From Loxodes magnus (Eukaryota > Ciliophora > Karyorelictea > Loxodida > Loxodidae): DNA of 64,000 nucleotides. Below are positions 1,637-34,715 of the stretch, piece after piece (position 1 is the stretch's first letter; each line of letters opens with the position of its first letter). The notes under the pieces were generated by a model. That model was given only the letters and a program-made list of their open reading frames with translations, did not search any database and was not told where the DNA came from. A program made the translations under genes and the position numbers. The stretch covers positions 206,673 to 270,672 of the forward strand of contig CAMPDV010000453.1 of assembly GCA_946699065.1 (NCBI GenBank), in the 5' to 3' direction.

Positions 1637-3874
1637 ATGGACTTCAAGTAAAGATGTGGCTATTGGGGAGTGTGTATGCAAAAAGTAGTTTCTAGGATCT
1701 AATTAAACTGTGGACATGTTTTCTGTAAAGAGCATTGGCCTACTATAAGATAAAAATTCAAAATTTAGGAGAATTATGCAGCTGAATTTTTATGCATGTA
1801 GTAGCATTCAAGTAAGTTAACTGGATAGGAAGTAAAATTACTTGACCAAATATTAATGGACTAAGAATCAGGTGATGAAATCCCTAGTTAGATAAATTAA
1901 AATACAATAGCTGCCTCTAGTTCTTCTATATCATAACTATAAGAAGAAAATCAGAATTTAAAGTAATAGATTCAAAATTTACAGTTAGAAAAGAATAAAG
2001 TGAAAGGCTCCAACCAAATGTAAGAATATGACAGTTTAGTTAATCAAATCTCTTAATAACTTCGTCATTCTTATTCAACTTTATCTAACTATTTGGAGTA
2101 AACAAATTCCTAAGAAAATATGATCAGTACATTATCTTCATAAGTCTAAGACTTACAATTTAAATTAGACAAAATAAATGAAGAGAAAGAATAGTTAGCA
2201 TAACTTTATAAGGAAGAATGTGAAAAGAGAGGAAATGAGAAAAAGTAATATGAAGAATAGTCTTTGAAACTACAATATATGCAAGAAAATTAAACTCAAT
2301 TAAGAGATGAAAGAAAAATATATAAAAAGAATGAGAAATAATATTAATTAATATTAAAAGAGTATGAGTTAAAAATTAAACAGTATGAAGATAATCTAAA
2401 ATAAAAAGCTCAATAAACATCATTTGAGTCCTAGAAAGTTTAAATATTGGAATCAGAACTATATAAATAAAAGAAAGAAAAAGAGAACCTTTAAGATATA
2501 TACTAAAAGGAATAGTAGTAAAATGCTTTGCTAAATTAAGATTTACAATAGAAATATTAAACTCTAATTCTTAAGAAAGATTAATAGCAACAGGAACATT
2601 TAAATAGCTAATGTGTTTTATAAGCTTAATTAAAGGAATTAGATTAAAAGTATATTGATATGAAAAAAATCAATGAAACTCTTTAGAAATAATTAAGCGA
2701 GGAATAGCAAAAGATAATTGAACTATAAGAAAATAATTTACATTTACAAAAATAGAACTAGGTTTTATAAAATTCCAAAATCGAGAATTTTTAAAGCAAA
2801 AATTTTGAATTTTAGGAAAAAAGTGAGTATATTGTATTAGATAACCAAAATTAATGCTCTTATCCATATTGCAAAAACAGAGAAATTAAATAAATTAGAC
2901 CTTGCAATAATTGGATTTGCAAAGTTCATTTATTTAGCTATTTAGAAAATTAAACAAAAGGATATGTTATTCAAAACAGTATAAAAGTTTGCTCCTACAT
3001 TTAATGCGCATTTTAAAGCTGTTAATCACCACATTTAATAGATTCATAGCTAATTTAATGAGCTTGCTCTTAGAAATTCTATTATTACTTAAAATTTGCC
3101 TAACTAAGAGAGTTATATATCTATAATTATGAATAAGGAAAAGCATGTCTAGGAGGGCATTGTAATAAGACAAAAAATGAGTTCTTTAAAAGAAATTGTA
3201 AATGTTCTGAAGAAATATGCACAAATTGTGCTGTTGAGTTACTTCAATAGTTTTAAAAATGTAGTGAGCCTGATTGTAACTAAGTTATGAACTCATAATA
3301 ACTTGAATGCTTAAAAATTCTAGAATCCTTTTAATAAAAGATGATACTAAGAAATTCTTATTTTTCATTAAATGGAAATTGCTTTTTTTGCAAAAAACCT
3401 TATAACAAAGAAATGGAATCACTTTCTTGCAATCACTACGTTTGTTAAATTGAACTCGCTAATTTTATAAGATCATAAATTTAAAAAAACTGCATAAGTG
3501 AATAGGATCTAAGTTGCTAAACCTGTAGAAAACCTTTTGGAAATGAATTAATTTAAAAATATGGAGGCATTTAGATTCTTTGAAACAATCTATAACCAAG
3601 ATAAAATACACAAGTATAGTATAAAACGGAATTAGCTCAAACTTAGAATTATTAGTATTTTTAAAACTAGTTCAAGCAATAAAATAAAGACAACTAAGAT
3701 TAATAAAACCCCTTTACTGCCAAAGTAGATTGACCAATTTGTAAGTATTGCTAGAAGCGAAATGCCAATCATTAAGTATAAGGAGTATAACTTTGTAAAG
3801 ATTGTTTCTAACACGTCTGCTATAAATGTGGTTAGAGCGAACATTTTGGAGATTGTGAAAAGTCTTAATAATGA
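1637..3874 (+). CDS. RING/coiled-coil/cysteine-rich protein, copy 1
   Basis: A single frame of 745 codons with UAA/UAG = Gln. The start ATG at 1637 places zinc ligands C7, C13, C25, H27, C30 and H33 (LNCGHVFCKEHW), the same numbering as in the paralogues. Residues about 75-400 form a Gln/Glu/Lys-rich coiled coil. The rest is cysteine-rich: a C-x4-C/C-x2-C block, a second RING-like module (CFFCKKPYNKEM ... SCNHYVC ... SCQTCRKPF) and a C-terminal block of CxxC pairs ending near HFGDCEKSQQ. One in-frame TGA (3059) lies where copies 2 and 4 have Trp (QWAC). It ends at TAA TAA TGA. By family logic it could be a ubiquitin ligase, but no substrate can be inferred. The 3' part is duplicated at 12071-13129. 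Confidence 0.8.
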
Positions 3875-4088
3875 CTTTGATAAGAAATTTTAATTTTATT
3901 ATAAATTCTAGAAAGTATTAATATATTAATCATCTAAAGCTTCTTCATTCTATTAAAATAATCTCATAGTAAAAATACTTAAATGCGGTTAAGCTATTAT
4001 ATAAGAGTTTAGCAATCAAAATGAAAACTTATTAAAATAGTTATATAATTAGAGTCTCTAGGTGATCTAGTAAAGTAACTTTACGAAA
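3043..4088 (+). repeat. duplicated segment, first copy
   Basis: It covers the last part of copy 1 and about 210 bases downstream. It matches 12071-13129 in direct orientation, base for base over most of its length with a few indels. The match stops abruptly at both ends, just after the shared motif GTAACTTTACGAA on the right. Confidence 0.85.
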
Positions 4089-6120
4089 TTTGAAAAAGTA
4101 CATGAATTATTTTTAATTAAGCTACATTATTAGAAAAACTTGAGAAATGGAAATTACAAGGCGATTGTACTTAAAGAGTGATTTCATAAAATAAATAACT
4201 AATTTAAATATTTGTTGATTTAAGATAATTAAGCTTGATAAATGGTTTATTTCATGATTATTTATATTTTAAAAGTGCTAGATTTAAAATAAATAACTAT
4301 CCCTATAATTGTTAACTTTTTTTAAAAAGCAAATGAATGTGATTTAGAATAAAAAGTTCATATTCTTTTCTATTTAATTAACGAACAAAGTTTATCAATC
4401 TAAGCGTTTATATAAAAGAGAAGCTTTACTATAAAACTAAGCGCATTTATAAAATTTCAGATAGCTATAAGAACAAAATTATGCTTGCTGGTAAGATAAA
4501 TGCTTAGATATAGCTTCTAACTTTAAAATAAAGCTATTTGTTTTATTTACTTTAGTAACTTAAAATTTTAGAACTGACTGATAACAAAAGCATCAAAGTG
4601 AGTACTTTTAAGAAAATCATTTATTAAGCAGTAAGAATATGCAAACTAGCTAAAGATAAAGGATCAAAAGCTTCCTTAGAGGTATCTTAGAATATTTTTC
4701 TTACCTTGACTCTCTTTTTAAGTAATTATAATAATCTAAGAAGCACAAATTAAGAATATCAGTCCTAGATGCTTTAAATTAATTAAGCCTAAAGCTTAGA
4801 AGGTTTATCTAAGATAACTATATTAATTTAAAATGAGAAGTGAAGAAACTCCTTCACTTCTTATATCTTTAACTATCTTATTCTACCAAAATTAATTTTA
4901 CTATTATTAGATGGATAAATTTGATTCTATCTTTAAGCTTTAAGAGATTGTTTAGTTGATACCTTTATTTTAATTCTTATAACTAAACTGATGACTTCTA
5001 TAGTTGAAAAGCTATAATTAAAGATATTAAAGTTTTAATTAAATCCTCATCAAATAGATTGTCAAAGCTTCTTCCTTAATCGAAGTAATCTAATTCAAAG
5101 CCTTACTTAATATCTCGTTAATAGAGCTTATGATCTAAATATCTAACTAATAATTAAAGCTTTTGGCAATACTTTGAATAGATTCCAAACTAATTCTTGG
5201 ATCATTAGATACACTCTAAATTTAAGTGCCAAATGACTAAATAAAAAATAATGAGTCAAATTAATAAGCTTTATTTACTAAAATGTAACTCATATCCACC
5301 ACAATTAAATATCTTTCTAGTTAAATAAGCCTAGCTAGCTCTGTATTTATTATGTAATATATATTTCATTTTTAATATCCTAATTATTTATGAAAACAAA
5401 TAATTAAAATTATTAATCCCTATTTTCTGGAACTAAGGGATTTAATATCCCTAAGTTTTTATATTTAGCCTTGCAATTTTAGTTAATTTTTTTAATGATT
5501 TTTCATTCTCGTTTCGAATATAAGATAGAGACTGCTAAGAAAAGGTTTATTACTATTGTTAAGCACTTTTCTGGGTTCTAAGATTTCTATGTTCCTCTTT
5601 TTTTTGCTTTAATTGTTTTCCTTTTAGAAGGTTTATATTAATTTAATATTCTTATTAATTTATGTTCCTTCACTTCTGATATTAGGATAAAATTCTTACA
5701 TTGAATCCTGAGAAATTCATTCTGCATAAATAATTGTAATATTTCTTTATCATCTAAAGCAAATATTTTTACCATGTTCCTAGATTATTATCTCGTAAAG
5801 CTTAGCTGAGAAAAGAAAATTAGATATCTATATAATTTCCTTTACTATCTTACTAATTTCTTTTAAGTTAGTTGCTTGTCTTAAGTTATATCAATTAAAA
5901 GGAATTGTAATAGCTTGGCATTTTGCATTAGACCTTTATTTAACATTTTTACTTAATTTAATAAAAATTATTTTTCTCTTATTTTCTATTTTTCGCTTAT
6001 TATCTAAATGAAAAATTAGACTTTTATTTCTAGAGCGAAAAACCAATAGATGCTTCGTCCTTTAAATTTATATTAATAGTTACTCTCTTACTTAAGATAA
6101 AAGCCTAAGTTGTTTTTCTA
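3875..6120. other. spacer between convergent RING-family genes
   Basis: No gene recognised. Parts of it (about 4480-4830 and 5100-5400, then about 5500-5900) match 15240-15540, about 15960-16070, 17300-17570 and about 17650-17830 weakly but in the same order, so it is the older-diverged spacer of a duplicated unit. Indels between the copies are not multiples of three, which argues against a conserved protein here. Confidence 0.5.
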
Positions 6121-9065
6121 AAAAGATGAAAATAATAAATAGATGATATTATATATTTAATTACTAGAAATGCTTCACTAAGCTTAGGTTAAATTACTTA
6201 TATAATTAAGATTAAAGCTACTATTTAAGATATTTTAGCTTTATTTTATAGATTTAACTATTAATTAGCTTTATTATTACTTAGTTATGTTTGTAAGTTT
6301 TATCACATTAATGGTTTATTACAGTTTCCTGCATGGATTTGCTAACCACATCTTTCACATATGAAATTTTTACAGTTATTGCAAAGAGGAATTCCTTACC
6401 CCTAATTTACGACTGGTCTTATCTAGCATGCTTTACACATTAATTACCCTTGAGATTGCATCATCTACGTAGAAGGTTATGTTTAAAACGTTGAATATTG
6501 TCCTTGTTGAATTGGAGTTTAAACGTATTGCTGATTTTGCTGAGGTACCTAACCTTGCTAAATATAGTTTTGTGGAACTTCATTAGATATTTTTATTTAC
6601 TAGTTGTTTTATCTAAAATATAATACCTTCTAATATGACTAGCTATCTGTACATTTTTTAATTAATTCGTTGCTAAAAGCTTGTTTGCAGGTTTAGCAGC
6701 TTAAGTCCTATTCACTTACGCAGTTTTTTTAAATTTATTAGATTATAAAATTAGCAAGTTCATTAACACAAGCATAGTGACTACAAGAAAGTGAAACCAT
6801 TTCTTAGTTATAAGGCTTTTTACAAAAAGAACAACTTTTTCTTTGATTTTCTCAGTCTTGAGTTTTAATTAACATAAGTTATTTAGCCTTTTATAAGCAA
6901 GCCAAGCAATCTATTTAATCTTAATTCAAAGGTTAAGCACAAATAGGATTACAACATTTTTTAAATTAATACATTATTTATACTGCACATTCTGTACATA
7001 TTTCGTCTTAACATTGGCATCCTCTTCTAAAGTATTCTGTACTATTCTTATTGCAATTACCTCCTGAACACATTTTATACTATTCGTAACTATAAACATA
7101 TTATTATCTTAAATTAGCGAATCTATAATAACGGTTAAACTCATTGCCACATGCCCATTTAATTTATTATTAGTTTAAAGTATGAATAGAATTACAGTTA
7201 GGAAATCCACACTTAACTTATAGGCTTTTTTCATCTTAGTGAGTGATAACATATCCTTTAGTTCTATTTTATATAAAATGCAATAAATGAGTATTACAAA
7301 TTAAGTTACCACAAGGCTCTATTTTTGTTAAATTTGGATTGTTACAAACTCCATAAGCACATTTTGGAGTTTCGTCTTTTTGTATTCAAACTGAATTTTT
7401 ATCAGGTTAATTTTCCTAAGCATTATCTCTTCTACTAGAAGCTAAATCATAAAGTTGTTTTACTTTAATTTCAGATTCTTACAAACTTTGCTTTAATTTT
7501 ATAATTTCAGCTTCTTTGAGGGACATTTAATCATTAATATTTTATAACTTTTACTTATATTCTTATAACGTATAATCTTAGTTTTAAAAGGAGTTTTAGG
7601 CTTACTTCTATCATTCTTAATTTTATTAACTTAACCTTTTATTTTCTTATTCTAGCTATAGAATAGTCTTTTCATACTATTATTTTTACTATACTACATT
7701 TTATTACATAGTTATAATTTCTTGTTGTAATCTTGCAATAAATTGGTCTTTACTTTGTTTTTCTGAATTTATTCTTTATATTTCCTGAGTTTATTATTAG
7801 TATACTAAATTCATACTATCTTTTTATTACCTTTCTTTGCTAAGTTCTTATTCCACTATTGAAAGTTTTTGTTGATTTTCTTGGCTTTATGTATAAGATA
7901 ACTATAATTATTTTTCAAGCTCCTAAATTCTATTCTATAAATTACTTATTTAGGTTTAAAAATCTTGAAACTTCTTTTCATTTTTTAAGAATTTTTTTCT
8001 TTCCTCTCTTAATTCATTTAAGTTTTCTTGCAAGTCTTTTACGATATTATTTTGCTAAGTATTCTGCTACTCTAAATTACTGGCTTTAGAAGTTAATTCT
8101 AATATTTATTACTTTTAATATTCTTCTTTTTATATGAATGTACTCTTTTCCGTTTAATAGTTCTAATTTTCAAAGTTCTTTTAAGATATTTACTATTCTA
8201 GATTTTTTATTTATATCTCTAAACTAAATTTTTATTAGTTTAATTCCTAGATTTGATATAGAGGTTAATTCTATTATAAGCTATTCTATTTCATTTTATT
8301 TATTTCTTCTTCGTATTATTTTTTTTCATTTGCTCTATTTTAGCATACTTCCTTATAAACTGTTGTAAGTTTCTCTTTCTCTAACTTTATTTTGTCTAAA
8401 TTAGATTCTAAGTCTTTATTTTACTGAGTAAATTGCCTTATTTAACTTTCTAGTAAGTTTATTTATTCATTTTAAGGAGTTAGGGAGGTTCTTTGAAGTA
8501 GCTCAGAAATTTGATTAACTGGATTACTAAAACCACTTTATTGGTTTGAGCTTTGCAATCTTTCTACTTCCTATTTTAAATTTTGATTCTATGATTTAAG
8601 GTTTTAGTTTTCTTCTTGTAATTAAGTTGCAAGAATATTAGATGAATCGCTATTATTTTAAGTTTATAAAGCAGGCATTATCTCCTCTATTTCTTAATTG
8701 AGTAGTATTTAATCAAGTATATTAGCTTGTTAAGCTGTTAATTTATTTTAATGCTACTACATGCATAGAAACTCCACTGATTAATTTTAACTTTATTATC
8801 CTAAATTTGTTTAACTTCCACTTTTAATCATTTACCACTAAGATTTCCAATGTTCTTTACAGAACATATGTCCACAGCTTAGTGTAATACTTGATACTAC
8901 TTTTTAGTCGCACAGTCCTCAGAAAGTACAGACTTACTGTTGTTGCATTTATAATAAAAATTAAAGAAAAAGGCTTTAAATATAATAATTATAAAGGAAA
9001 TATTTTATTTTATAAATCATCTAATAAGCTTTTATGTTGACTATCTTTAAGCCTTCTATTTAATT
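6121..9065 (-). repeat. duplicated segment carrying RING gene copy 2
   Basis: It matches 18048-20991 in direct orientation over about 2.94 kb, nearly base for base. The copies diverge abruptly at both ends. An older, gapped third copy lies at about 34650-37240. Confidence 0.9.
6303..8948 (-). CDS. RING/coiled-coil/cysteine-rich protein, copy 2
   Basis: One frame of 881 codons from ATG at 8948 to TGA at 6303-6305. N-terminal RING-like ligands are C7, C13, C25, H27, C30, H33, C62 and H66 (LSCGHMFCKEHW, then FLCMQQH). Residues about 70-525 are a Gln/Glu/Lys/Asn coiled coil. From about 530 there are CAYGVC and PCGNLIC pairs, WACGNEF, a second RING-like module (SCSFCKKPY ... SCSHYAC ... SCQTCKQAF), a Gln-rich linker and a C-terminal CxxC cluster ending HAGNCNKPLM. 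In-frame TGA falls at residue 10 (Trp in copy 1), in QNQE-x-QKQ, in SV-x-I and in TQD-x-EN. It is convergent with copy 1. It is probably intact. A ubiquitin-ligase role is inference from the RING only. Confidence 0.8.
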
Positions 9066-10380
9066 TCTTTACTTATTTATTGCTAGCTATTGTTGATTAT
9101 CTCCTATCTTCTGTTTATTTCTGAATAAATGGAATATTGAAATTAAACTAAAAGTTAAATAACTAAGCTAATAAATTTTAGAGATGAAGCATTTGAGAAA
9201 GTTCTTATCATTTTCCTTAATAGTGTCTATTTACAAGAATCAATTCACCAAACTTAATTCTTTTGAAATATGAATAGAATTTATTTTCCGTTAGATTCTT
9301 AAACGCTTCATAAGAATTTATTTCATATTTAATAATCAAATAGTCAAGCAATCAAATAAAGCAGCTAGTTCTGCTTTTGATGCTTATTAATTCTATTTAA
9401 ATAGGGCTTTAAAAGAAATGCCTATATCATGAGTTTATCTTATAAAAATAGAGAAAATTAGTTAAAGCAAACACAATTGAAATTATCGTTGCTTAAGGAA
9501 TCTACTTATTATGGAAAAATTAAGCAAGTAACTATAATTAAATCCTTACTTAACTGACTATATGAATACTTTGTCTTAATTTAAAAAAGGAATAAATCAT
9601 GCTTTCTTTGTTTAATATCTCAGATCAAGTCATTATTTTGATCATGACTTTAAGCAGAAAGATAGTTAAATTTAAAAATTCTTATTAATTAGCAGAGTAA
9701 TGGGAGAGTTATCTATCGTAGATGTATTATCATCATAAATTTTCTCTGGCTTTTTTCAATTTATCACTATAGTACTATAAGCTTTTGCTTAAGCTTTAAT
9801 AATTTCCCATTACTAAGAATTAATTAACTTCAATGTCTTCTCTCTCATATTCCTATAATATCAAACATGATTCCTAAATATTTAGCCTCAGATATCTTTT
9901 CTTCTATTTCATCTACTGTTTTGCACTAAATATATCTATCAGTAATGAAAAAGGGACAAGCATAGTTTTCTTTAATGTTAGCAAATAGTAGCAGTAAGCG
10001 ATTTGTATAGCTTAATGCAAGTATTAAGAGCCTTAGTATTTTCTTAATTTCTAAAACTGATTTAAGAAGCTTTAAAAGATAACTATTTATATTAGCTGCT
10101 ATTTATTAAAGGAATATCATTTTATACTTATAATCAACAAGCCTTTCGTTCTTAGTTATTAGTTCATGCTTTATTTATAAATGCAGCCAAATTAGTAAAA
10201 ATGTATATTAGAACTGAAAGCTAAGCTTCTCTTTAAAAAGAGTCCTTAGTAGATAACTATCTTATATTTATCTTTCTGCCTTACTAAATATCTTTAATCC
10301 ATATACCTTCTATAATTGCTAGGTATACCCAAGTTTCTATAAATAAGTTAATTCCACAAGTAATCTAAATATAGCTAATT
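8949..10380. other. spacer without recognised gene
   Basis: No gene recognised. Its first 600 bases (9000-9600) match 37240-37760, the flank of the decayed RING copy 5, showing that the older duplication extended past the gene. Confidence 0.45.
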
Positions 10381-11000
10381 TAGATATTAATGATATAATA
10401 AGGAAATTAATCTAAGTATAACTAAATACAGTTGTATTGAAAGTAAGAGCTAAAGTATATTAGTATAGGCTCTTGCATTATTAGTTGTTTTATTATAGAG
10501 AGAAGGAGGGCTTTTATTCTTAAGTATCTAGGGAACTTTAAGATTGAGTTATAAAAATAAGAGTTCTATTAACTAGATAATGGAAATAGTAAAATAGCCA
10601 GCTTCTATGTAATTAAAGGGAAGATATAATTTCATAAATTTCATGTGTAAACTAACTGACATTATAATACATCTATAACTAAGATTTTAGAGTTAAAGGA
10701 AAATAAAAATAAACTTTAGTTAGAAAAATAGTAAAGAGATAAGTGCTTCAGATCTAGTCAAAAATAATCTATTGGATATAAAGCTTAAGCAATCATTATA
10801 GAACCTAAGAAAAAGCTAAAAGAGATTCTAGCAATGACTGAATAAAACGTCAAGAACTAAAGTAATCTATTAGAAAGAATCAGGTTGAAGATAAAGTAGT
10901 TTTAAAAGAAATTAGAAGAATATAAGGCTTTGCTATAGCAAAAGAAGAATAAATGAAGTAAATAAAAATGAAAAGGAAGGATGATATCTTCTAAATAAAT
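10381..11000 (+). CDS. possible coiled-coil protein fragment
   Basis: The frame of base 10381 reads a Lys/Glu/Gln/Leu-rich coil with regular heptads (for example LLERIRLKIKQFQKKLEEY and LELKENKNKLQLEKQQRDK) preceded by a less charged part containing two Cys and several His. The purine-rich plus strand agrees. A degraded relative lies at 23330-23512, next to the LINE 3' end. Neither start nor stop can be fixed. Function is not recognised; a TRIM-like coil is one possibility. Confidence 0.4.
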
Positions 11001-11569
11001 TAAAATATTAAGCATAAAGCCAACTATAATCAAATTCATTCCTTAAATTTTACCTTATAATAATCTGAGTATGCATTTAAAAATCAAAGCTCATTCTTTA
11101 AATTTATCACTCAATTTTTCCTTAATTATTAAACTTTATTTAAACCAAAAGATACAATAAGTAAAGGATTAAATTTCATAATCATGTTGCTTTACACTAT
11201 AAAGGAAATAAAATTCCTCATAATTCTACTAATAATTAGTTATTTTATCTTCTTAAATAAAGAAATAAATCATTAAGCAATATTTTAATTTTTCTTCTTA
11301 AGTTTTTATTTTAAATATATAAAGCTTCACAGATATGCTAACTCAAAACATTTCTAAACATCTTTATCAAACAGAAGAAATATCTTTGCTATCTAAGTAT
11401 TTATTTCTATTTCTATATTTATTCCTTTTAGGTTACCATTTGGTGAGATGCTAAATTAAAAATTAGAACTAAACATATCTTTACAACTTCTAGAAAGCTT
11501 TTAACTTAAAATTTAGGTTTATTATGTAGAAAAATTAATAGCCAAAGTTTGTGTAGATTACTTGAAGTA

Positions 11570-11890
11570 TTTAAGTAACCTTCTTATTATTGAGGAATAA
11601 AGAATCTAAGTGTAGAAAATGTAAAATATGCATCTGATTGAATGTGAGTAAATTTGTCTTCTAAAAGCAAACACTCAAATACTTATTTAAGAGTGTTAGT
11701 TTATATAACCATAAAGTTATAAAATTACTTTATCAACAGAACTTAGTTTTAATAGTTCTAAGAAGAAAATAAAAGAGATAGTCACAAATAAGAATAAGAG
11801 TTATTAATAGAAGTAAAAGCTTAGTTATACTCTAAAAATAAAGATATTGAAGTAACTAATTATTCTTTCTATACTCTTAGTTATATTAGT
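11570..11890 (+). repeat. inverted copy of 37990-38320
   Basis: Reverse complement of the 37990-38320 region with moderate divergence. Anchors are GTAGAAAATGTAAAAT against CTAGAAAATGTAAAAT and a shared ACTCT...AAGATATT.AAGTAAC block. Single-base indels between the copies argue against constraint on a protein. Confidence 0.6.
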
Positions 11891-11994
11891 TAAGCTTTCA
11901 TTTGCTTTAGTTGAAGATACTCTAGCTTACTTTAAGTTTTACTAGGATATTTCACATATTGTTTAAAATTTAATTTTAGTATACATGAATCAAA

Positions 11995-12916
11995 AATATT
12001 AGGGCTTTGTTATTATTAGCGCTCCTGCATTAAATAGACATTTTCAAGCTGACAACTTTAAATAAAATTATTCATAGCTAATTTAATGAATTCGCTCTTA
12101 GAAATTCTATTATTACTTAAAATTTGCCTAACTAAGAGAGTTATATATCTATAATTATGAATAAGGAAAAGCATGTCTAGGAGGGCATTGTAATAAGACA
12201 AAAAATGAGTTCTTTAAAAGAAATTGTAAATCTTCTGAAGAAATATGCACAAATTGTGCTGTTGAGTTACTTCAATAGTTTTAAAAATGTAGTGAGCCTG
12301 ATTGTAACTAAGTTATGAACTCATAATAACTTGAATGCTTAAAAATTCTAGAATCCTTTTTAATAAAAGATGATACTAAAGACATAAGACTTAATACTAA
12401 GAAGTTCTTATCTTCCATTAAATAGAAATTGCTTTTTTTGCAAAAACCTTATAACAAAGAAATGGAATCACTTTCTTGCAATCACTACGTTTGTTAAATT
12501 GAACTCGCTAATTTTATAAGATCATAAATTTAAAAAACTGCAACAAGGATTTAAGTTGCTAAATCTGTAGAAAACCTTTTGGAAATGAATTAATTTAAAA
12601 ATATGGAGGCATTTAGATTCTTTGAAACAATCTATAAGCAAGATAAAATATACAAGTATAGTATAAAACGGAATTAGCTCAAACTTAGAATTATTAGTAT
12701 TTTTAAAATTAGTTCAAGCAATAAAATAAAGACAATTAAGATTAATAAAACTCCTTTACTGCCAAAGTAAATTGACCAATTTGTAAATATTGCTAGAAGC
12801 GAAATGCCAATCATTAAGGATAAGGAGTATAACTTTGTGAAGATTGTTTCTAACACGTCTGCTATAAATGTGGTTAGAGCAAACATTTTGGAGATTGTGA
12901 AAAGTCTTAATAATGA
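11995..12916 (+). pseudogene. truncated RING-family copy 3
   Basis: It holds only the 3' part of the family: it starts within the CxxC block before QLI.W and runs to the same TAA TAA TGA end as copy 1. The N-terminal RING and the coiled coil are missing. Relative to copy 1 it carries a 2-base deletion near 12050, a one-base loss in the CFFCK(K)PY run, several short gaps and a 21-base in-frame insertion, so the frame is broken. The downstream 210 bases are also shared with copy 1. Confidence 0.75.
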
Positions 12917-13129
12917 CTTTGATAAGAAATTTTAATTTTATTATAAATTCTAGAAAGTATTAATATATTAATCATCTAAAGCTTCTTCATTCTATTAAAA
13001 TAATCTCATAGTAAAAATACTTAAATGCGGTTAAGCTATTATATAAGAGTTTGGCAATCAAAATGAAAACTTATTGTGATAGTTATATAATTAGAGTCTC
13101 TAGGTGATCTAGTAAAGTAACTTTACGAA
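12071..13129 (+). repeat. duplicated segment, second copy
   Basis: Direct partner of 3043-4088; see that entry. Divergence is higher inside the coding part than in the last 250 bases. Confidence 0.85.
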
Positions 13130-13689
13130 GTTAAAAAAATATAATAATTATTGCTAGTTAAACTTAATATAATAGCTTAACTTTTATATTTAATTAGAGT
13201 AATGAAAATTTGTAATGCTATATATAATATCAATATGCTTGAGATAGTAGAAAGATAAATAGGCTTAAAATTAATAATAAGAAGATAATCAAGAAGACAA
13301 TATTATAAGATGAAGAAGTGTAAATATGTAATGATATAATAGCTATTAGGCTAATTTTTTATGGCTGCTTAATTTTACTATTACTAAACTTAAAGTATTC
13401 AGAATTACATAGCTTCAATGCTAGAAAACTCGAGAAAAGGAAATTAAAAGTAATTGCTTCCCTATTAATGATTTATTAAAATTACTTAGCTATTTTAAAT
13501 AAATTTTCCTTCAAGAAAAGTAAAATCTATAAATGCTTTAATTTATAGATGACTCTTTTATCCATCAGAAGTATTAAATTAAAAAAAGAATATCACTATA
13601 TATCTTCCAACTTTTCTTCAAACAAACGCACCTAGATTAGAATAACAATTTCATACTCAATTAATTTGATCAGCTGAACAAAGTTCATC
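12917..13689. other. spacer
   Basis: The first 210 bases belong to the duplicated segment. The remainder is weakly similar to 4090-4400. No gene recognised. Confidence 0.4.
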
Positions 13690-15148
13690 TATCTAAAGTC
13701 TTTAAATCTAAGATTAGTTTTAAAACTTAATTAATTTATATACTTATACTAATAAGTGAAGCATTTTCATAATTGAAAAAAATCTTATTACGCAATATCT
13801 TCCCTTTATTTAAATAATAGAAAAGTTAAGATTATTTAAACTAAAACTAATTAGATAGAGATAAACAGTCATTAAATATTATTTATTTAACTAAAATTTT
13901 TAATAATGCTTGCTTTTTATGACTTTCAACCAGTTCTGGCTGTCTTTTTTTATCAAGGTTGAATTCCTCAAACATTTTGTATAGGTATGGCTGCCATTTC
14001 TTCTCCATCTAATAAGGTCTCTTTTATCTCACATTTTTAACTAAATTTCTAAAAAGATGTTGAAAATGTCAAAAATTAGGACATATCTCCAAAAAATGCA
14101 CAGCAAGATGCTTCTTTTGTTAAAGAAATAGACATATATTTAAAAACTGCTGGCACTTTTAGAGAAAACAGTAATAAAAAGGTCAAAAGTTATGAAATGA
14201 CATGTCTAAGCTATACTGTTCCCCAGAAGGAATACTTTATAAGAAAAGACATATAGCAGAGATTAATTACTATTGGATATGTAAACACTCAAAAAAGAAG
14301 AACGAGATAAATGTCTGGACCTAATTGAGACTGGAACAAGATTCCTACTGTCAATAAGGGATAAATTAACTTGAGTCGATACGTGATAGAAGAATGCAAG
14401 TCTATTACTTCGAGAGAAAAATAGAGCAACCCCATGAGCATTTGAGAAAACTTATAAGCTGATTCCATGACTAACCAACAAAGGAAAAAATCACGTAAAT
14501 AGATTATTATTATTATTTATAAAATGCTTTTCTTGTTCTCTTCAGGTTCTTAATCTTCTTTTTTAGTTCTTTTAAGCCAAAATAAATTTTTAATTAAAAT
14601 TTGGGAAGAATAACAATATCAGCGCCTTCTTATTTTCTACAAGCAAACAAAGCTCTAAAATTTTTCCAATTATTTAGTTACTTTAGTTTTTTAATTTCTG
14701 ATTCATCAGTTATTTGATTAGAAACAATATCAGTCTTAGTTTCTTCAGTATTAATTGAAGTTTCCTCTATTTAATTTGATTAAAATTAACATCATAGATG
14801 TTCTTCTTTTAAAACTTGATTTGAATAATTTGTTTCCTTGAATATGTAGTTTTTAGATTTAATTCTCAATATTAAATTCGTGTTTTCTTTTTCTTAAAGA
14901 TTATAGATTAACTTATCCTGTTTGCCTTGAATTTCTTATTTTATCATAATACTCATTTGAGATTTATCTTTCTATTCGTTTATTAATTACTAATTTTGCT
15001 CTCTCATTTACTTTATGATACGAATTTGATGATTATGCTTTTTTTCTTCTTGTCCCCTTTATTCCCTAGTCTTTTTTGCTTCATTTTGATGCTTTATTAT
15101 TTCAATTTCCCGGATTTTAATAGAATCAAAACTTTAAGGTTCTTACAT
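13690..15148 (-). pseudogene. coiled-coil gene split by a retroelement fragment
   Basis: From ATG at 15148 the minus strand reads about 209 strongly charged residues (for example REIEIIKHQNEAKKTREQ, LNNWKNFRALFACRKQ, GLKELKKKIKNLKRTRKAF) down to 14521. There a plus-strand LINE ORF1 piece ending in ATT repeats intrudes (14045-14520). On its other side the minus strand resumes with VRQKRPYQMEKKWQPYLYKM and continues about 80 residues to a TGA near 13690. Composition on both sides is far above background in Asp, Glu, Lys and Gly, which is why one interrupted gene is inferred. The family is not recognised. The end coordinate is approximate. Confidence 0.5.
14045..14520 (+). mobile_element. LINE ORF1 fragment with two CCHC knuckles
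   Basis: The plus frame reads RCWKCQKLGHISKKC followed by TARCFFCQRNRHIFKNCW, two C-x2-C-x4-H-x4-C zinc knuckles (14058-14150) as in gag/ORF1 RNA-binding proteins. The Trp of the first knuckle is TGA. About 110 residues follow, then an ATT-repeat tail. A second copy lies at 55535-56012, equal in extent and tail. It sits inside the minus-strand gene 13690-15148, so it looks like a 5'-truncated insertion. No target-site duplication could be fixed by eye. Confidence 0.7.
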
Positions 15149-15573
15149 GGAACTTTAATACTTAAGCTGCAAAATAATTGCATTTGATTTTATTCTTTAG
15201 CTTAATAGACTAAAAATAGATCTACCTGATAACTATAAGAGCAATTTTACGATGGTATGCTAAGGTTAGGGTTTAAATCTATCTTCTAACTTTTAAATTA
15301 CGCTATTCGCTTTAATTTACTTTACCAACTTAAATTTTTAATCTGATAGCAAAAATATCAAAGGAAAATTACAGGAAAAAGTCTTAAGAGTGCTATTAAT
15401 ACAATCCAGAGTAGTTAAAGTCAAAAGATTCCCAATTTCCTTAGAAGTATATTAGAATGATATTTTCTTAATTTGTCCCTTTTTAGAATTAAAATCCACA
15501 AATAATGCTTGCAAATTAATTTAAACAGTTAAGGCTTTCATAAGAAATTACTTTTTGTTTCTATGACTTAAAA

Positions 15574-15890
15574 AGGGAGGAGTAGTCCTTCAACTGAGAT
15601 TAACTTAAAATCTTTTGCCAGGAAGTACCCAGAATGACGAACAGAGAAAGAATCTGGGATGGAGCCAAGAAGAAACAACTTAAGGTATCAAGTAACACCA
15701 GATGAAAGAGTCCATATTATTTGGGCCAACACTCAAATCATGACCTATTATAAAACAGGGTTTTCAAGAGAGTTATAGCATGAGGTAGTCTTCAATGAGA
15801 AATTTTAACAATCCCCAAAAACCCAAATTAAAGATTTGCGCACCAATAAAATGCTACGCGCTTTATAATTAAATTTATTATATTTATCTA
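15574..15890 (+). mobile_element. SINE family A, copy 1
   Basis: It starts AAAGGGAGGAGTAGTCCTTC and ends with the shared 3' hairpin box (GCGCACC ... CTACGCGC) and an AAATTTATTAT tail. It matches the reverse complements of 25633-25957 and 60316-60633 and is the most diverged of the three. No open reading frame was recognised, so it is non-autonomous. Confidence 0.7.
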
Positions 15891-16079
15891 AATGCTTGTA
15901 ATTTAATAAATTAAAAAATATTAAAAATAACAAATTAAGAATATCTGCTTTAGATATCTCTAGATAAATAAATTTAAAGCTTGGAATATTTCTATTAGAT
16001 AACTATATTTAACTTTATAACTCCTTATACCTTTTAACTATTTGATAATACCTTAACATATCTTATTATATATTAAATT

Positions 16080-16450
16080 TTAAATAGGGTGGAAAGCCCT
16101 TTCCTTCGGGTGCTGCTTGGAGGCACAGCAAGGTAACAAAAAATGAGCGCGGACGGAGGATAAATCGGAGGAAGAGAAACTAACTACAAGAGAAGGAAGA
16201 TGTGACAAGCTGGAGAACTCTGAATGCCAGGAGGAAACTTTCTTCATCATAGATCCGGGGAATGTACCCGTAATCACATATTGCATCCTAAGTTTTGGAA
16301 GGAAAAATTACAGGGATGTACTGCAGGAAGAGGAAACAAGGAAAGAGAGAAAAGAGAGACCTATAAAAAAAATTTCGATATTAAATAAAATTAATTTAAA
16401 TAGCTGTGCACCAACGAGAGTGCTACGTGCTCTATAATCCAATATATTTA
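16080..16450 (+). mobile_element. SINE family B, copy 1
   Basis: It starts AAATAGGGTGGAAAGCC and ends with the hairpin box GTGCACCAACGAGAGTGC and an ATTTA-type tail. It matches 22030-22402 in inverted orientation. Its GC content is clearly higher than that of the surrounding DNA. The interior differs from family A, but the 5' AAATAGGG.GG start and the 3' box are common. Confidence 0.75.
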
Positions 16451-16489
16451 TATCAGACTGCTAATTTAGATTTTATCTATTAAAAGTAC

Positions 16490-17260
16490 TAAATAAAAAA
16501 GTTCAAATCAGAATTTTTTGGACTCCAAAAAGGTAAGAGTTAACGACATCCTAAAGAGGCTAGTACCAGGAAAAGGGAATCAAAAAATCATTAATCAGGA
16601 GGAGTTTCTCACCTCTGAAGAATAGCCTAAGATAAAGGATAAAAATATAATGAACTCGAAAGTCTCGAATCTCACCACAAAATAGTAAATAAGCAATAAT
16701 AAGCTGATTAAAGTGGTACTGGAACTCCAAGAAGGTCAAAAAGAAAGATGTTAAGAAATGAATGGAAAAAAATTGAACTTGCAGAGGAAATAGAATCAAG
16801 ACACATAACTTAAGAAAGAGACCTTAACGCATTTTGAAACATTTACAACACCAGAAAAATTAATCATTATACTAGTAATAGAAACAGAAAGAAAAAGTCA
16901 ACAAAATAGCAAAAATTGCGCGTTTAGTGGACCTAAAATTATAATAAAATAACCCAATGATAATTGAAGGAGAAAAGAACTCAATATTTAAACCTAATCG
17001 AGAATCAAAAAGATGTTATTATTGTAACTCTCGAACACATCTATAGAAAAGATCCTAGAAATATCAAACTTTAAATAGCAATAATTTAAACTACTAGAAG
17101 AAGTAGATGAATATTAAAAAGATATAACATAAAAAACTAAAAAAAGAAAAATTTTATTGCAAAAAATTTGGAAAAATATACAAGATGAAAGAGATCAATC
17201 ATTATCAAGGAACAAGGATACTTCAGTGACAATATGCATAGAAGGATAAGAGTTGTAGAG
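16490..17260 (+). mobile_element. LINE ORF1 fragment, degenerate
   Basis: Two adjoining plus frames read charged ORF1-like protein (for example KMLRNEWKKIELAEEIESRH, then KRCYYCNSRTHLQKRS). The second contains a zinc-knuckle pattern C-x2-C-x4-H at about 17014-17040 whose last Cys is replaced by Arg. The frames are offset, so it is a relic. The segment around 16500-16550 is related to 22830-22870. Confidence 0.55.
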
Positions 17261-18047
17261 ACATTTAGGCTTTTATACTCCTCCTAAGTCAAAATAATTA
17301 AATTCAAACTCTTATTAATCTCCAATAGATATTAAATAACTTCTAAGTGCTTAAATAATTGGTAATACTTTAATTAAATTTAAAAAATAATATTGTCCAT
17401 AAGATACACTCTATACTTAAAGTCAAGGTGATTAAATAGCTAGCTATATATCAAATTAGTAAGCTTAATCTAATATAAGCCTCTTTTATCAATATAATAA
17501 TAGTAATCCCTTATATTAAAATAAAGCTAGATCTATATTTATTATGAAATATTTGCTTCATTATTGTAATCTTAATTAATTATAAATCAAAAGTTTAAAT
17601 ATAACTCTTTTTTTCTAAGACTAGGTATTTAATATCCTTAAATAAATTCTAAGATTTTTCATTCTCGATAGAATATAAGATAGAGGTCATTAAGAGACAT
17701 ACATCTTTATTTTTTAATAGAAGTTTGCTTGTTTTCTTAGATCCTCATGTTTTCTTTACTATCTCACAAATTTTAGTTAAGCCTGTTGCTTGTCTTAAGT
17801 TATATTAATTAAAAGAATTTTTCCTCTAGCAATTTTAATTTAAATCATTATTTAGTATTTACTCATTTTAGCGAAAATTCTCTGTCTCTTTTTCTTTTTT
17901 ATGCATATTCTCTAAAAGAAAAATTTATCTTTTCCTAAAGCAAGGAACCAATAGATTTTTATCCTTTTTTTTAAATCAATTTCATAGCTTCCCTTTTACT
18001 TTTTAAAGTTAGAGTATAGATGTTTTTCTAAAATAAAGGAAACAAAA
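17261..18047. other. spacer of the second duplicated unit
   Basis: No gene recognised. It matches 5100-5900 weakly and in the same order, up to the sharp start of the 18048-20991 repeat. Confidence 0.45.
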
Positions 18048-20991
18048 GATGAAAATAATAAATAGATGATATTATATATTTAATTACTAGAAATGCTTCA
18101 CTAAGCTTAGGTTAAATTACTTATATAATTAAGATTAAAGCTACTATTTAAGATATTTTAGCTTTATTTTATAGATTTAACTATTAATTAGCTTTATTAT
18201 TACTTAGTTATGTTTGTAAGTTTTATCACATTAATGGTTTATTACAGTTTCCTGCATGGATTTGCTAACCACATCTTTCACATTTGTTATTTTTACAGAT
18301 ACTGCAAAGAGGAATTCCTTACCCCTAAATTACGGCTGGTCTTTACTAGCATGCTTTACACATTAATTATCCTTGAGTTTGCATCATCTACGTAGAAGGT
18401 TATATTTAAAACGTTGAATATCGCCTTTGCTGAAATGGAGCTTAAACGTATTGCTGATTTTGCTGAGGTACCTAACCTTGCTAAATATAGTTTTGTGGAA
18501 CTTCATTAGATATTTTTATTTACTAGTTGTTTTATCTAAAATATAATACCTTCTAATATGACTAGCTATCTGTATATTTTTTAATTAATTCGTTGCTAAA
18601 AGCTTTTTTGCAGGTTTAGCAGCTTAAGTCCTATTCACTTACGCAGTTTTTTTAAATTTATTAGATTATAAAATTAGCAAGTTCATTAACACAAGCATAG
18701 TGACTACAAGAAAGTTTAACCGTTTCTTAGTTATAAGGCTTTTTAGAAAAAGAACAACTTCTTCTTTGATTTTCTAAGTCTTGAGTTTTTTTCAAAATAA
18801 GTTATTTAGCCTTTTATAAGCAAGCCAAGCAATCTATTTAATCTTAATTCAAAGGTTAAGGACAAATAGGATTACTACATTTTTTAATTAATATCATTAT
18901 TTCTACTGCACAATCTGTACATATTTCGTCTTAACATTGGCAACCTCTTCTAAAGTACTCTGTACTATTCTTATTGCAATGACCTCCTGAACACATTTTA
19001 TACTATTCGTAACTATAAACATATTATTATCTTAAATTAGCGAATCTATAATAATAGGCAAACTCATTGCCACATGCCCATTTAATTTATTATTAGTCTA
19101 AAGTATGAATAGAATTGCAGTTAAGAAATCCACACTTAACTTATAGGCTTTTTTCATCTTAGTGAGTGATAACATATCCTTTAGTTCTATTCTATATAAA
19201 ATGTAATAAATGAGTATTACAAATTAAGTTACCACAAGGCTCTATTTTTGCTAAATTTGGATTGTCACAATTTCCATAAGCACATTTTGTACTTTCGATT
19301 TTTTTTATATAAACTGAATTTTTATCAGGTTAATTTTCCTAAGCATTATCTATTTTATTATAAGCTAAATCCTAAAGTCGTTTTACTTTAATTTCAGATT
19401 CTTACAAACTTTGCTTTAATTTTATAATTTCAGCTTCTTTGAGGGGCATTTAATCATTAATATTTTATAACTTTTACTTATATTCTTATAACGTATAATC
19501 TTAGTTTTAAAAGGAGCTTTAGGCTTACTTCTATCATTCTTAAATTTATTAACTTAACCTTTTATTTTCTTATTCTAGTTATAGAATAGTCTTTTCATAG
19601 TATTATTTTTACTATTCTACATTTTATTACATAGTTATATTTTCTTGTTGTAATCTTGCAATTAATTGGTCTTTACTTTGTTTTTCTGAATTTATTCTTT
19701 ATATTTCCTGAGTTTATTAGTACTATACTAAATTCATATTATCTTTTTATTACCTTTCTTTGCTAAGTTCTTATTCCAATATTGAAAGTTTTTGTTGATT
19801 TTCTTGGCTTTATGTATAAGATAACTATAATTATTTTTCAAGCTCCTAAATTCTATTCTATAAATTACTTATTTAGGTTTAAAAGTCTTGAAACTTCTTT
19901 TCATTTTTTAAGAATTTTTTTCTTTCCTCTCTTAATTATTACAAATTATAATTTAAATCTTTTTTAATTTCATTTAGTTTTATATTCTCTTACTCTAAAT
20001 TACTGGCTTTAGAAGTTAATTCTAATATTTATTACTTTTAATATTCTTCTTTTTATATGAATGTACTCTTTTCCGTTTAATAGATCTAATTTTCAAAGTT
20101 CTTTTAAGATATTTACTATTCTAGATTTTTAATTTATATCTCTAAACTAAATTTTTATTAGTTTAATTCCTAGATTTGATATAGAGGTTAATTCTATTAT
20201 AAGCTATTCTATTTCATTTTATTTATTTCTTCTTCGTATTATTTTTTTTCATTTGCTCTATTTTAGCATACTTCCTTATAAACTGTTGTAAGTTTCTCTT
20301 TCTCTAACTTTATTTTGTCTAAATTAGATTCTAAGTCTTTATTTTACTGAGTAAATTGCCTTATTTAACTTTCTAGTAAGTTTATTTATTCATTTTAAGG
20401 AGTTAGGGAGGTTCTTTGAAGTGGCTCAGAAATTTGATTAACTGGATTACTAAAACCACTTTATTGGTTTGAGCTTTGCAATCTTTCTACTTCCTATTTT
20501 AAATTTTGATTCTATGATTTAAGGTTTTAGTTTTCTTCTTGTAATTAAGTTGCAAGAATATTAGATGAATCGCTATTATTTTAAATTTATAAAGCAGGCA
20601 TTATCTCCTCTATTTCTTAATTGAGTAGTATTTAATCAAGTATATTAGCTTGTTAAGCTGTTAATTTACTTAAATGCTACTACATGCATAGAAACTCCGC
20701 TGATTAATTTTAACTTTATTATGCTAAATTTATTTAACTTCCACTTTTCATCGCTTATCATTAGGCTTTTCAATGTTCTTTACAGAACATATGTCCACAG
20801 CTTAGAGTAATACTTGATAATACTTTTTAGTCGCACATTCCTCAGAAAGCACAGACTTACTGTTGTTGCATTTATAATAAAAATTAAAGAAAAAAGGCTT
20901 TAAATATAATAATTATAAAGGAAATATTTTATTTTATAAATCATCTAATAAGCTTTTATGTTGACTATCTTTAAGCCTTCTATTTAATTTC
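18048..20991 (-). repeat. duplicated segment carrying RING gene copy 4
   Basis: Direct partner of 6121-9065, almost identical except for scattered substitutions and one dense patch of differences at about 19937-19996. Confidence 0.9.
18226..20871 (-). CDS. RING/coiled-coil/cysteine-rich protein, copy 4
   Basis: 881 codons, ATG at 20871 to TGA at 18226-18228, exactly the length of copy 2 and with the same domain order: RING ligands C7 to H33, coil about 70-525, second RING-like module, C-terminal CxxC cluster ending HAGNCNKPLM. Trp codons differ from copy 2: CKEHW-KSQW there is TGG/TGG, here both are TGA, as in copy 5. Residue 10 is TGA in both. A patch of the coil (about 19937-19996) is replaced by a different, still in-frame coil sequence. 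The equal length and absence of frameshifts suggest an expressed gene. Recent duplicate of copy 2. Confidence 0.8.
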
Positions 20992-23566: not shown

Positions 23567-24949
23567 CATATCTCAATTTATGTCCGTTTCTTCAAGTATG
23601 CCTTCAGGTAATTTAAATTCTTCTCTTATTAGTTACATATCTTCATCATTTCCTCTACATTATCTCTTATTCTTCTGTCTTCTATCTATCTACGCTTTAT
23701 TAGATCTTTATTGCAAGCTTAATTTATTTTTTCTTACATTTCTTACTAATTTTCGTTTCTAATTTTTTTCCTCTTAATCAAGCTTTTATACGTTCATAAA
23801 AATTATCCTTTTCATTCTCTATAGTCTTTTTCTATTTCTTTTTTATTCAATTTTCTTTTCTATGTATCCTTTTTTCCTTTTTCTAGTATATATTTAACAT
23901 AATTTTTTATTATCAAATCAACTTTAGCTGTTTTTTACTCTTCTTATGCTCTAATGAATTTCTCGAATTGGCCATATTTCATATTATATCAAATAGTTCC
24001 ATTCCTTGTCTCTCTACTCCTATTGCTCTTATATTTCATATACATATTAATCCTCCTTCTTTTTATTCTGAAAATTTTTCTATGATATGTCTTTCATTTT
24101 CTCTCGCATCATTACAAAAAGAACATTGGTTTGTCACAACTAGGTGCCTTTCTTTTAAGCAATACTAGCTCACATTACATCTCGTTCTTATTCTAAATAT
24201 GTAGCATATTTCTTCTTTTCTGTTTTATTATATCTCAGGTATTTATGTGGTCACACCACATATTCATCAAATAATATCTTTCTATACAGTAATGTTGTTA
24301 TCATTTACTCCATTTTTTCTCTATCTTCTACATATTCTCTATATTCTCAAATTGCAAGATTAATGTTTTTCTTCTCTTTTTATCTATAAATATATTTTTA
24401 ATTCTTAAATCTAATTTTATTACCGACAATATTATTCAAATATAAATTTTTCTTCTTTAATTATAACAAACATAAATCTGTGTACTGTTTTTTCTTAGTT
24501 ACCTATTAATATGCCTCTTAATCTCAACGCTTTCTGTCATAAGTAATGTTTAAATTTCATAAGCTACAATTAATGTTCTAACATCTCATTTTGCACTTGA
24601 AAAAGGGCATCTGTGATCGTTCATAAGGATTATTTCTATGTTATTTCTTTGTAATGTCACTTATTCCTACAAATTATTCGCAATATGGATCATTTCTGTC
24701 CTAGCTGAAAATTGAGCTTACGAACATTTTAATCGTCATTCCTGCGTTATATAGTGTTATTCTATTATTCATTTTTATTTTTCCCAGTATTCATGCTTAT
24801 ATCTTTTATATTGCTTCTATTCTATTCTCCATGTGTTTTTCAAAATTAATGTTCTCTTCTATTATATGACCTAGATACTAAAAGGTGTTACTCTTTCCAT
24901 CATTTAATTTCCCACCTCTATAGTATTTACAATATTTTCTCACTTACTA

Positions 24950-25632
24950 TTTATTGCTGCTTTGCATAGCCTTCATTTTGTTTAATTTGTAATTTGTATT
25001 TTGTTTTTTTCTGTCCATGAGGCTAAATTTTCAATTACTTCCTCTAGTTATTCACATTCACTTATTAAAGCTAGGTCATTGAATATGCAAAACATTCTTT
25101 ATTTATTTCTTATTTATATTCCTCTTCGTTTTTATTTATTTATCATAATTCCTAGCTTTTAGTCTTCCAAACTTCAGAAAAGTTTTGCTATTATCAATTT
25201 AGACAGTGTCGGTGGTGTTGTGATTCACTATTTTAGCTCTTTATTAGTTGCGAATGATTTTGCTATTAATCATTTATTTTCAGTTTAATTCTTCTTCACA
25301 GTTGAAGTTTGATTATCAATTCTGGTACTTTTAGATCATTTAGGGTTTATCATATATCTTTCCTTTGTTCCAAGTTATAATCTTTCTTAATATAAACAAA
25401 TATCATAAAGTATCTTTTTTATTTCTCAATAATCATTCCTATACTGTTTTTAGGTTGAAGATTTAAAGTGCGAATGATTTACCTTTTTTTAAACCATATT
25501 AATATTCGCTTTCATTATTATATAGATATCCTTACATTTGCTAGAAAATTCATGTGTCTAAATTTTTAAAGCATAATTCAATAAAGAGATTGATTTATAG
25601 TTCATTGGGCTCATCTATCCTCCTTTTTTGTA
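24950..25632 (-). pseudogene. LINE reverse transcriptase remnant
   Basis: In order: YKSISLLNYALKI (the xRPISLLN-type motif), a GKSFALQIFNLKT stretch like FRKGxSTxxQIFxLR, FVYIKKDYNLEQRKDI followed by TLNDLKVPELI (the catalytic F-x-D-x-x-K-A-F/Y-D motif with the first Asp replaced), and FNDLALIS at about 25062-25092, the FADDLALIS motif with a residue lost. A W-T-E-K-N-K-I-Q-I-N-like thumb region follows. Frameshifts separate the blocks. Inactive. Confidence 0.7.
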
Positions 25633-25957
25633 TAAATAAAATATAAATAAATGAGATTACAGAGAGCGTATCACCTCAATGGTGCGCAGCTCTTTAATAA
25701 AGATTTTTAAAGTAAAAAATTCATTGTTGAAGTCTTCCAAAGAGCTAGCATTCCCTTGTGAATTTGTCTTCTATAGGGCCACGATCAGAATGCTACTCTA
25801 AGAGACCTTAGTATCTGGCATCATTCGTCATTAATGTTACTTGATACCTCTTAAATCTTGTCTTGTCTTCTCTTCTTTTGGCTCGTTCTTCATCTATGGA
25901 GTACTTCCTATTACCAGAGTTTAAGTCAGTTTCAGTTGGAGGATTGCTCTTCCCTAT
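25633..25957 (-). mobile_element. SINE family A, copy 2, nested in the LINE
   Basis: Minus orientation: 5' AAATAGGGAAGAGCAATCCTC at the right, 3' box GAGCTGCGCACCATTGAGG and CTCATTTATTTATATTTT tail at the left. It interrupts the LINE between its reverse-transcriptase core and the upstream part, so it inserted after the LINE did. Confidence 0.75.
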
Positions 25958-26939
25958 TTATTTATATAATAATTTTATGTATTATTATTTCGACTTTTAA
26001 GATATTATTCCCTCTTAAATCATCTTTGCTATCATCCTGCATGTTATTTCCATTAACTTTTGCCACCTACTAAAATTTTTTCTACTCATATTTCATCAGG
26101 TACTGCTTCTTTTCATTTCGCTAATTAGTAAATGCTTTCTCAAATTTCATATTCTTTTACCATTATAAGCTTCTTTCTTAAGAATTTTTTTGGTAGGGTA
26201 ATATCGCCATTTTCATATAACTACTATCATTCACCCTGAAAGTCTTACATCTTCTTTTGATAAGGGTACCCATTAATTATTTTTTTAAAGCATTTTTTTA
26301 GTTCCTTCAACATTTTTTTCAGATTTTCTTTATTTGCATTGTTGATAAATAGGTTAAGTTAATTTATTTTTCTTTTTTTCTTGATTAAATGTATTATTTT
26401 CTTGCTCTTTGCTATTCTCTACATTCCTCATTTTATTTATTTTCAGTTATTTCTTCGTCGCTCTTTACCTTTTATTTTAATTGCTTGCTAAATTTTTCTG
26501 AAAAATTTATAACACTATTTTGCTTTTTCTGAGTATTTATATATCCTAATGTTTTATGTTTTAACCGTTCATATACCATTTAAACTCTTTCTTCTATCTT
26601 TTTCATCATTTATAAGACTAAATACCCTTTAGGCTATTAATTTCTTCTTCTTAGACATTTTCTTGTATAATTTTTCAAATTATTCTTAAATCTCCTTTTT
26701 CTTTAAAAGTAAGTAATTTATTATTTTTACCTTTAATGGTTTTTTAAATTATTTTCCAATCTTTCTATATAATACCGGGTCTATAGTTCCCAATTAAGTA
26801 TGAATAATAAAAATAACTTTTTATCCCCTTTTCTCTCATTATCTCTTCAATTACAAAATAATCTGATTTATATTCATTTTTAGTGAGTAAAAGTGCCTAT
26901 TTCAGTTGCATTAAATTATTCCATGAATTGTAGCATTCT

Positions 26940-27420
26940 CTTTCCAGCTGAGCTTGTTTTCTTTGGCTGCCATTTCTCTATATGCGCATTTCAATCTTCT
27001 ATGATAATTACGTTAAATCCTTTTTCTATTACTTATAGATTAAATTCATTCAACAAATTGTAAAAAGGTTCATATTTTCATTGTAATTTGCAACAAATGC
27101 ATATACATTTATTATTGACAGTTTTTCATTACTTTAATGCAATCACTCTTGCTCAAGCAAAAAGCACTGTTTGATTCACTTCATTCTATATTTTTCAAAT
27201 TCTTTATATATGACGTTTCTAATGTAGAATGCTACTCCTATCCTTTTTTTTGATTCCACATCTTCTAAGCTTTTAAATCCTACTATTTTACACATATTTT
27301 TTTAGTTTTCAATCTAAATGTCTTATATTACTATTGTGTGGGTATTTGTTTAGTCATTAATTTGGTTAGTGCATCTTTTGCACTTCTAACTCTCCTAACA
27401 TTTTCTGTCCCTATTTTTAT
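26940..27420 (-). pseudogene. LINE apurinic-type endonuclease remnant
   Basis: KIGTENVRRVRSAKD (about 27370-27420) corresponds to the N-terminal IGTWNVRxL motif of EEP endonucleases. KRIGVAFYIRN and SIINVYAFV follow. VIIIEDWNAHIEKWQPKK (about 26950-27010) is the GDFNAHxGxW motif; its first Trp is encoded by TGA. One frameshift lies between NVYAF and EDWNAH. Acting in the nucleus, this domain would nick target DNA to prime reverse transcription. Confidence 0.7.
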
Positions 27421-34650: not shown

Positions 34651-34715
34651 TTTAGCTTTATTTTATAGATTTAACTATAGCTTTAAAATTATTTTCTTAT
34701 GCTTTTCATTTCTAT

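Follow-up and report, generated by a model that had tools for sequence, protein, structure and literature searches.

The window analysed in this work, i.e., the whole stretch of 64,000 nucleotides of Loxodes magnus DNA (G000:C453:206673-270672), harbors seven copies of a RING-like gene family (Table 1). When the standard genetic code is applied, a single ORF of at least 100 amino acids is found in the 64-kb window; if the three triplets TAA, TAG, and TGA are treated as sense codons, a single frame is kept in each of c1, A, B, D, and E.

Table 1. Copies of the RING-like family in the window; positions are those of the whole stretch.
Copy	Number in the original prediction	Position	Strand	Structure
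c1	1	1637-3874	+	745 codons, terminal TGA at 3872-3874
A	2	6303-8948	-	881 codons, terminal TGA at 6303-6305
c3	3	12070-12920	+	frame-shifted C-terminal piece, recent duplicate of c1
B	4	18226-20871	-	881 codons, terminal TGA at 18226-18228
C	5	34615-37400	-	decayed, frame-shifted
D	6	45080-47590	-	single frame if TGA = Trp, seven internal TGA; C-terminal end not clear
E	7	49265-51901	-	single frame, six internal TGA, terminal TGA at 49265-49267

Internal TGA triplets occupy codons 10, 446, 521, and 699 of copy A and codons 10, 34, 38, and 446 of copy B. Copy c1 carries TGG at the N-terminal Trp residues 10 and 34, TGA at the Trp of the QWAC motif (3059-3061), and two further internal TGAs; the three internal TGAs of c3 are the same as those of c1. 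A recent duplication (3042-4111 and 12070-13152, 94.5% identical) includes the 3' part of c1, and its second copy is frame-shifted. A possible start ATG of copy E lies upstream, near position 51937. The identity to A in BLAST alignments is about 31% for D and E and 33% for c1. In copy C, 17 of the 29 gap events with respect to A are not multiples of three; since this copy is decayed, it counts as evidence only at the TGAs that it has in common with A or B. The span 6303..20871, to which the original prediction had assigned the family, does contain A, c3, and B, but c1, C, D, and E lie outside it. Elsewhere in the window, an interspersed repeat is present at 14051-14521 and 55539-56012 (87% identical), its first copy matching a zinc knuckle below threshold (at about 14055-14102), and the region 24001-28000 exhibits GC skews of -0.22 and -0.39 and an AT skew that is strongly negative as well; no gene was recognised there (Pfam scan up to 25.9 kb). 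The six-frame Pfam search of 13.1-18.0, 21.0-25.9, 28.0-32.9, and 52.0-56.9 kb (about 4.9 kb each) disclosed no match above the cut-off.

The proteins of the family begin with a RING-like Cys/His motif and end in a region of about 350 residues that is rich in Cys; the part between the two is Gln-rich and looks like a coiled coil. At least 49 matches to the family were retrieved from the genome, many of them on contigs C453, C421, and C2067. Near-identical counterparts exist for E on C421 and for D on C2067, and the latter contig harbors another E-like copy as well; the near-identical copies on the three contigs may be alleles or duplicated segments. No Pfam family, RING and IBR models included, was shown above the cut-off, the nearest being zf-DPOE (20.7 versus 21 bits); the nine profile matches of the family are all weak (E of at least 0.018), no PDB sequence matched copy E at E of 0.1 or less, and no relatives were found in viral or prokaryote contigs. 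For the C-terminal part of A, a structure was modelled with low confidence (mean pLDDT of 53). The ten best PDB matches obtained with this model in Foldseek are RING, U-box, or RBR ligases, all of them with E of at least 0.046 and thus none at 0.001 or below; that the family has a ubiquitin-ligase-like role is a guess.

The starting point of the analysis was the proposal that UGA stands for Trp in this family, on the basis of three conserved positions at which TGG and TGA would replace each other. The codons are indeed those that had been reported. Residue 34 is TGG in c1 and A and TGA in B, C, and E; residue 10 is TGG in c1 and TGA in A, B, and C; the Trp of QWAC is TGG in A and B (as well as in C, D, and E) and TGA in c1. 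It is also correct that A and B keep frames of the same length, 881 codons, through these TGAs, each of them being followed by a terminal TGA; the two align without gaps over all 881 codons in MAFFT, and BLAST places four single-base gaps there. The statement that the swaps are reciprocal, so that no single decaying copy is responsible for them, is borne out by the swaps themselves and by the enrichment in Trp across the family described below, but one of the copies cited in its favor (copy 5, i.e., C) is a decayed pseudogene.

In order to assess which residues face the internal TGAs, as the original prediction had proposed, the copies were aligned as codons with TGA and TGG masked, so that Trp could not be favored. 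The genome searched (G000) consists of 705,730,643 bases in 7843 contigs. The alignment comprised 30 copies in 22 clusters. Five of these are window copies; the other 25 belong to a set of 30 loci that had been cut out of the 49 genome matches and whose remaining five members are window copies themselves. The 19 matches without a locus and the window copies C and c3 were omitted. One TGA cell was counted per cluster and column, for a total of 52 cells, 11 of which were dropped (residue in fewer than three other clusters), leaving 41 usable cells. Averaged over these cells, Trp made up a fraction of 0.19 and F/W/Y one of 0.40 in the other clusters, compared with 0.000-0.003 and 0.009-0.087, respectively, for the cells of AGA, CGA, GGA, TTA, TCA, TGT, TGC, and TAA; TGG cells had a Trp fraction of 0.547. 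When TGAs were placed randomly on codons one step away (TGG included), the observed value was reached in 0/5000 permutations with transition weights of 1, 2, and 4. The residues opposite the internal TGAs are therefore enriched in Trp rather than random.

Most of this Trp signal is held by the QWAC column, which in the 30 copies contains six TGA, 23 TGG, and one TAR. On its removal, the Trp fraction falls from 0.19 to 0.062 and F/W/Y to 0.308 (35 cells), values still reached in 0/2000 permutations at weights 1 and 4. Some observations count against TGA being Trp: among the 32 TGA-bearing columns, TGG is also present in nine and absent from 23, and five of the seven TGAs of copy D fall in columns without TGG. 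As for the other two triplets, the residues opposite TAA and TAG are Gln (0.146 and 0.124, respectively) and Glu (0.106 and 0.111), and those opposite CAR are Gln (0.170) and Glu (0.094); GAR faces Glu at 0.33. The possibility that UAR encodes Glu was rejected, since the profile of TAA/TAG resembles that of CAR and not that of GAR; the alignment supports the assignment of UAA and UAG to Gln.

The same assignments were looked for in genes unrelated to this family, i.e., small GTPases, through a genome pattern for the WDTAGQE motif in which Trp could be TGA or TGG and Gln CAR or TAR. A total of 142 matches was obtained, and none with the reversed control. Among the 100 matches listed of these 142, the Trp codon was TGA in 64 and TGG in 36, and the Gln codon was TAR in 82 and CAR in 18 (the pattern admitting only CAR and TAR). 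When the first codon was allowed to be any T-codon, the matches rose from 142 to 149, and the four extra ones among 100 listed were TAT, TAC, TAT, and TTT. Thirty GTPase loci were fetched (18 with TGA and 12 with TGG); in 26 of them, the GxxxxGK[ST] motif was read by eye upstream in the same frame, and in the other four the mismatch of the upstream frame is perhaps due to an intron.

In A, B, c1, and E, the frame is closed by a TGA, which implies that UGA is not only a sense codon. The ends of 18 copies, four from the window (c1, A, B, and E) and 14 from other loci, were compared in a test that searched for TGA only; D and 11 further loci of the alignment were omitted because their match stops short of a clear C-terminus or because they are near-identical to E (L009, L011). 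In 17 of the 18 copies, a TGA is located 1-21 codons past the last conserved Cys, at a distance of exactly five codons in nine of them; in the remaining one (L029), there is no terminal TGA within the 300 bases read. In the 18 copies, several of which are close relatives, the closest upstream in-frame TGA lies at least 37 codons before the last conserved Cys; in-frame UGA thus appears to be depleted ahead of the stop, as in table 27. Two eRF1 genes, each with the eRF1 domain and the NIKS motif, also end at TGA, and a second in-frame TGA follows two codons later. They form a closely similar pair on G000:C196 (L070, L071), about 35 kb apart. A third, better-scoring match to the eRF1 domain model looks Pelota-like. 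The residues around NIKS are unusual in the two genes; TDAHGRAQNIKS and FLCENTF take the place of TDEFGTASNIKS and YLCDNKF, present in most eukaryotes, a difference compatible with an altered recognition of stop codons. Judging from the ends of the copies and of the eRF1 genes, UGA also serves as the stop codon. The original prediction that all three stop triplets are sense is hence right but incomplete, UGA being found as well at the end of 17 of 18 copies and of the two eRF1 genes.

The ratio dN/dS differs between older and more recent pairs of copies. Constraint is seen in the older pairs, with values of 0.48 (A-c1), 0.39 (A-E), 0.47 (A-D), and 0.27 (D-E), which are rough where dS exceeds 1. 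For the recent pairs A-B and A-L014, the values are 0.92 and 1.32, suggesting that these recent copies (A, B, and L014) may be drifting now, which counts against the Trp reading. A and B differ by 117 substitutions and four gap events over 2644 coding columns, and by 59 and 22, respectively, over 572 columns of the flanks; two of the TGAs of A face TAT and TTA in B.

One alternative is that L. magnus uses the usual code of ciliates (table 6), in which UAR is Gln and UGA only a stop, and that each copy with internal TGAs is a pseudogene that acquired them by the decay of TGG. Copy C, which is indeed a pseudogene and has TGAs absent from the others compared, and the near-neutral A-B ratio of 0.92 are in keeping with such a scheme. 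Yet the four TGAs of C that are absent from A and B lie opposite TAG, TAA, TTA, and AGA, i.e., none of them at Trp, whereas the TGAs of the family are enriched in Trp; on the basis of this control and of the permutations, the decay of TGG in pseudogenes was rejected. Moreover, c1, D, and E keep a single frame at 31-33% identity to A, and the Trp of WDTAGQE is more often TGA than TGG among the matches listed, a result that refutes table 6 unless most of such GTPases are pseudogenes. Decay under table 6 thus retains a practically negligible probability.

In other organisms, UGA encodes Cys, as in euplotids, or selenocysteine, and the abundance of Cys in the RING-like family would fit either. The TGA cells, however, face Cys at a fraction of just 0.007, against 0.92 and 0.91 for the TGT and TGC cells, and TGA alternates with TGG both at QWAC and at WDTAGQE; the euplotid code (table 10) was rejected on the former ground, and a Cys or selenocysteine meaning is extremely improbable. 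A code of the Condylostoma type (table 28), which admits UAA and UAG as further stops, has the same sense meanings and a context-dependent ending (PMC4967479), and the end test, having sought TGA only, leaves room for UAR stops. Against it stand the 17 copies, out of 18, that have a TGA closely following the final conserved Cys and the published Loxodes code, in which UGA is the sole stop (PMC11441545); such a code is very unlikely here. It is almost certain, instead, that the somatic (MAC) genome of L. magnus, to whose assembly the window belongs, uses table 27, with UAR read as Gln and UGA as Trp inside genes and as stop at their ends, tRNA-Trp(CCA) being the putative decoder. This is the code that the original prediction had arrived at (UAR = Gln, UGA = Trp or stop); the family, the unrelated GTPases, and the published Loxodes code all support it, and the karyorelicts that the prediction had named fit as well.

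The same prediction expected a Trp tRNA with a UCA anticodon; no such gene was found by the patterns used, to which a UCA tRNA with another sequence would be invisible. A tRNA-Trp pattern admitting either anticodon gave two matches in the genome, both CCA and none UCA; a looser UCA pattern gave two matches versus ten for its reversed control, neither of the two being recognised as a tRNA by ARAGORN. The main core pattern, in which U27 and C43 were fixed and CCA or UCA allowed, gave 72 matches, all CCA and all located at G000:C148:155445-209579 (L076, L077, L082). Sixty-six of them form a single run with a spacing of about 241 bp, and the 241-bp repeat is matched at 100% within a 4-kb piece of the array. 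The nine genes that were read fully (eight from L082 and one from L076) are identical in sequence and encode a tRNA-Trp(CCA) whose anticodon stem is reduced to 4 bp because U27 and C43, at its top, do not pair.

The array on C148 could partly be an assembly artefact. A dosage reading, according to which the size of the array could track the usage of UGA among karyorelicts, is doubtful; tandem runs of tRNA genes (type unread) also exist on C103, C158, and C78, so that the C148 array alone is no evidence for a dosage role. Several tRNA-like genes at C110:361709-473962 (L072, L073, L078, L080, L081) share nearly one body with a poorly paired T stem and differ in their anticodon arms, being assigned by ARAGORN to Trp CCA, Arg CCT, and Met CAT. 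Neither the 64-kb window nor 60 of the loci contain tRNA genes. A narrow pattern for Gln tRNAs reading UAA and UAG had no match, which is not to be taken as evidence that they are lacking.

Taken together, the RING-like genes almost certainly form an expanded family in which TGG and TGA are both decoded as Trp, so that one can drift into the other. UGA would be read by tRNA-Trp(CCA), whose unpaired U27.C43 leaves a 4-bp anticodon stem, and eRF1 would outcompete it only when the end of the mRNA is close, so that UGA would stay usable as a stop; the poly(A) tail might have a role in this termination. Counting against this scheme, tRNA-Trp(CCA) with a full 5-bp anticodon stem, and with poorly paired T stems, is also present on C110. 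The case illustrates, from DNA sequence alone, how a multigene family can reveal both a reassigned stop codon and its role as terminator, and the double meaning of UGA, Trp and stop, is relevant to the way in which genetic codes evolve. That UGA is Trp or stop in Loxodes is already known and published, and so is the candidate tRNA mechanism; the one point possibly worth the attention of specialists is the extensive array formed by the tRNA that probably reads UGA.

The comparison with the published data on this species starts from its MAC assembly, which amounts to 706 Mbp (PMC11441545). According to that paper, L. magnus uses table 27, UGA being the sole stop and, at sites distant from the poly(A) tail, a codon for Trp; the median length of the 3' UTR is 41 bp, and in-frame UGA is depleted over about 20 codons before the stop. 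The same picture was found here, with UGA as Trp or stop depending on its position, UAR as Gln, and, in the 18 copies compared, a stop that is not closely preceded by another in-frame UGA; no difference from the paper emerged in these features. The resemblance extends to Condylostoma magnum (table 28), for which PMC4967479 describes 64 codons that can all be sense, a context-dependent ending, and a nuclear genome in which no UCA tRNA-Trp was found; there, however, the three triplets are all stops as well, whereas in L. magnus TGA ends were seen, in an end test for TGA only. With regard to decoding, a tRNA-Trp(CCA) with a 4-bp stem raises the readthrough of UGA and is reported in Loxodes too (PMC13092985, PMC12005148); there, the tRNA-Trp of Blastocrithidia, Condylostoma, Blepharisma, and Loxodes is, as here, CCA with the top stem pair unpaired, and a UCA form was not found. 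What differs from those 4-bp-stem systems is that a single contig gathers 72 core matches here, with 66 in an uninterrupted series at about 241-bp spacing.
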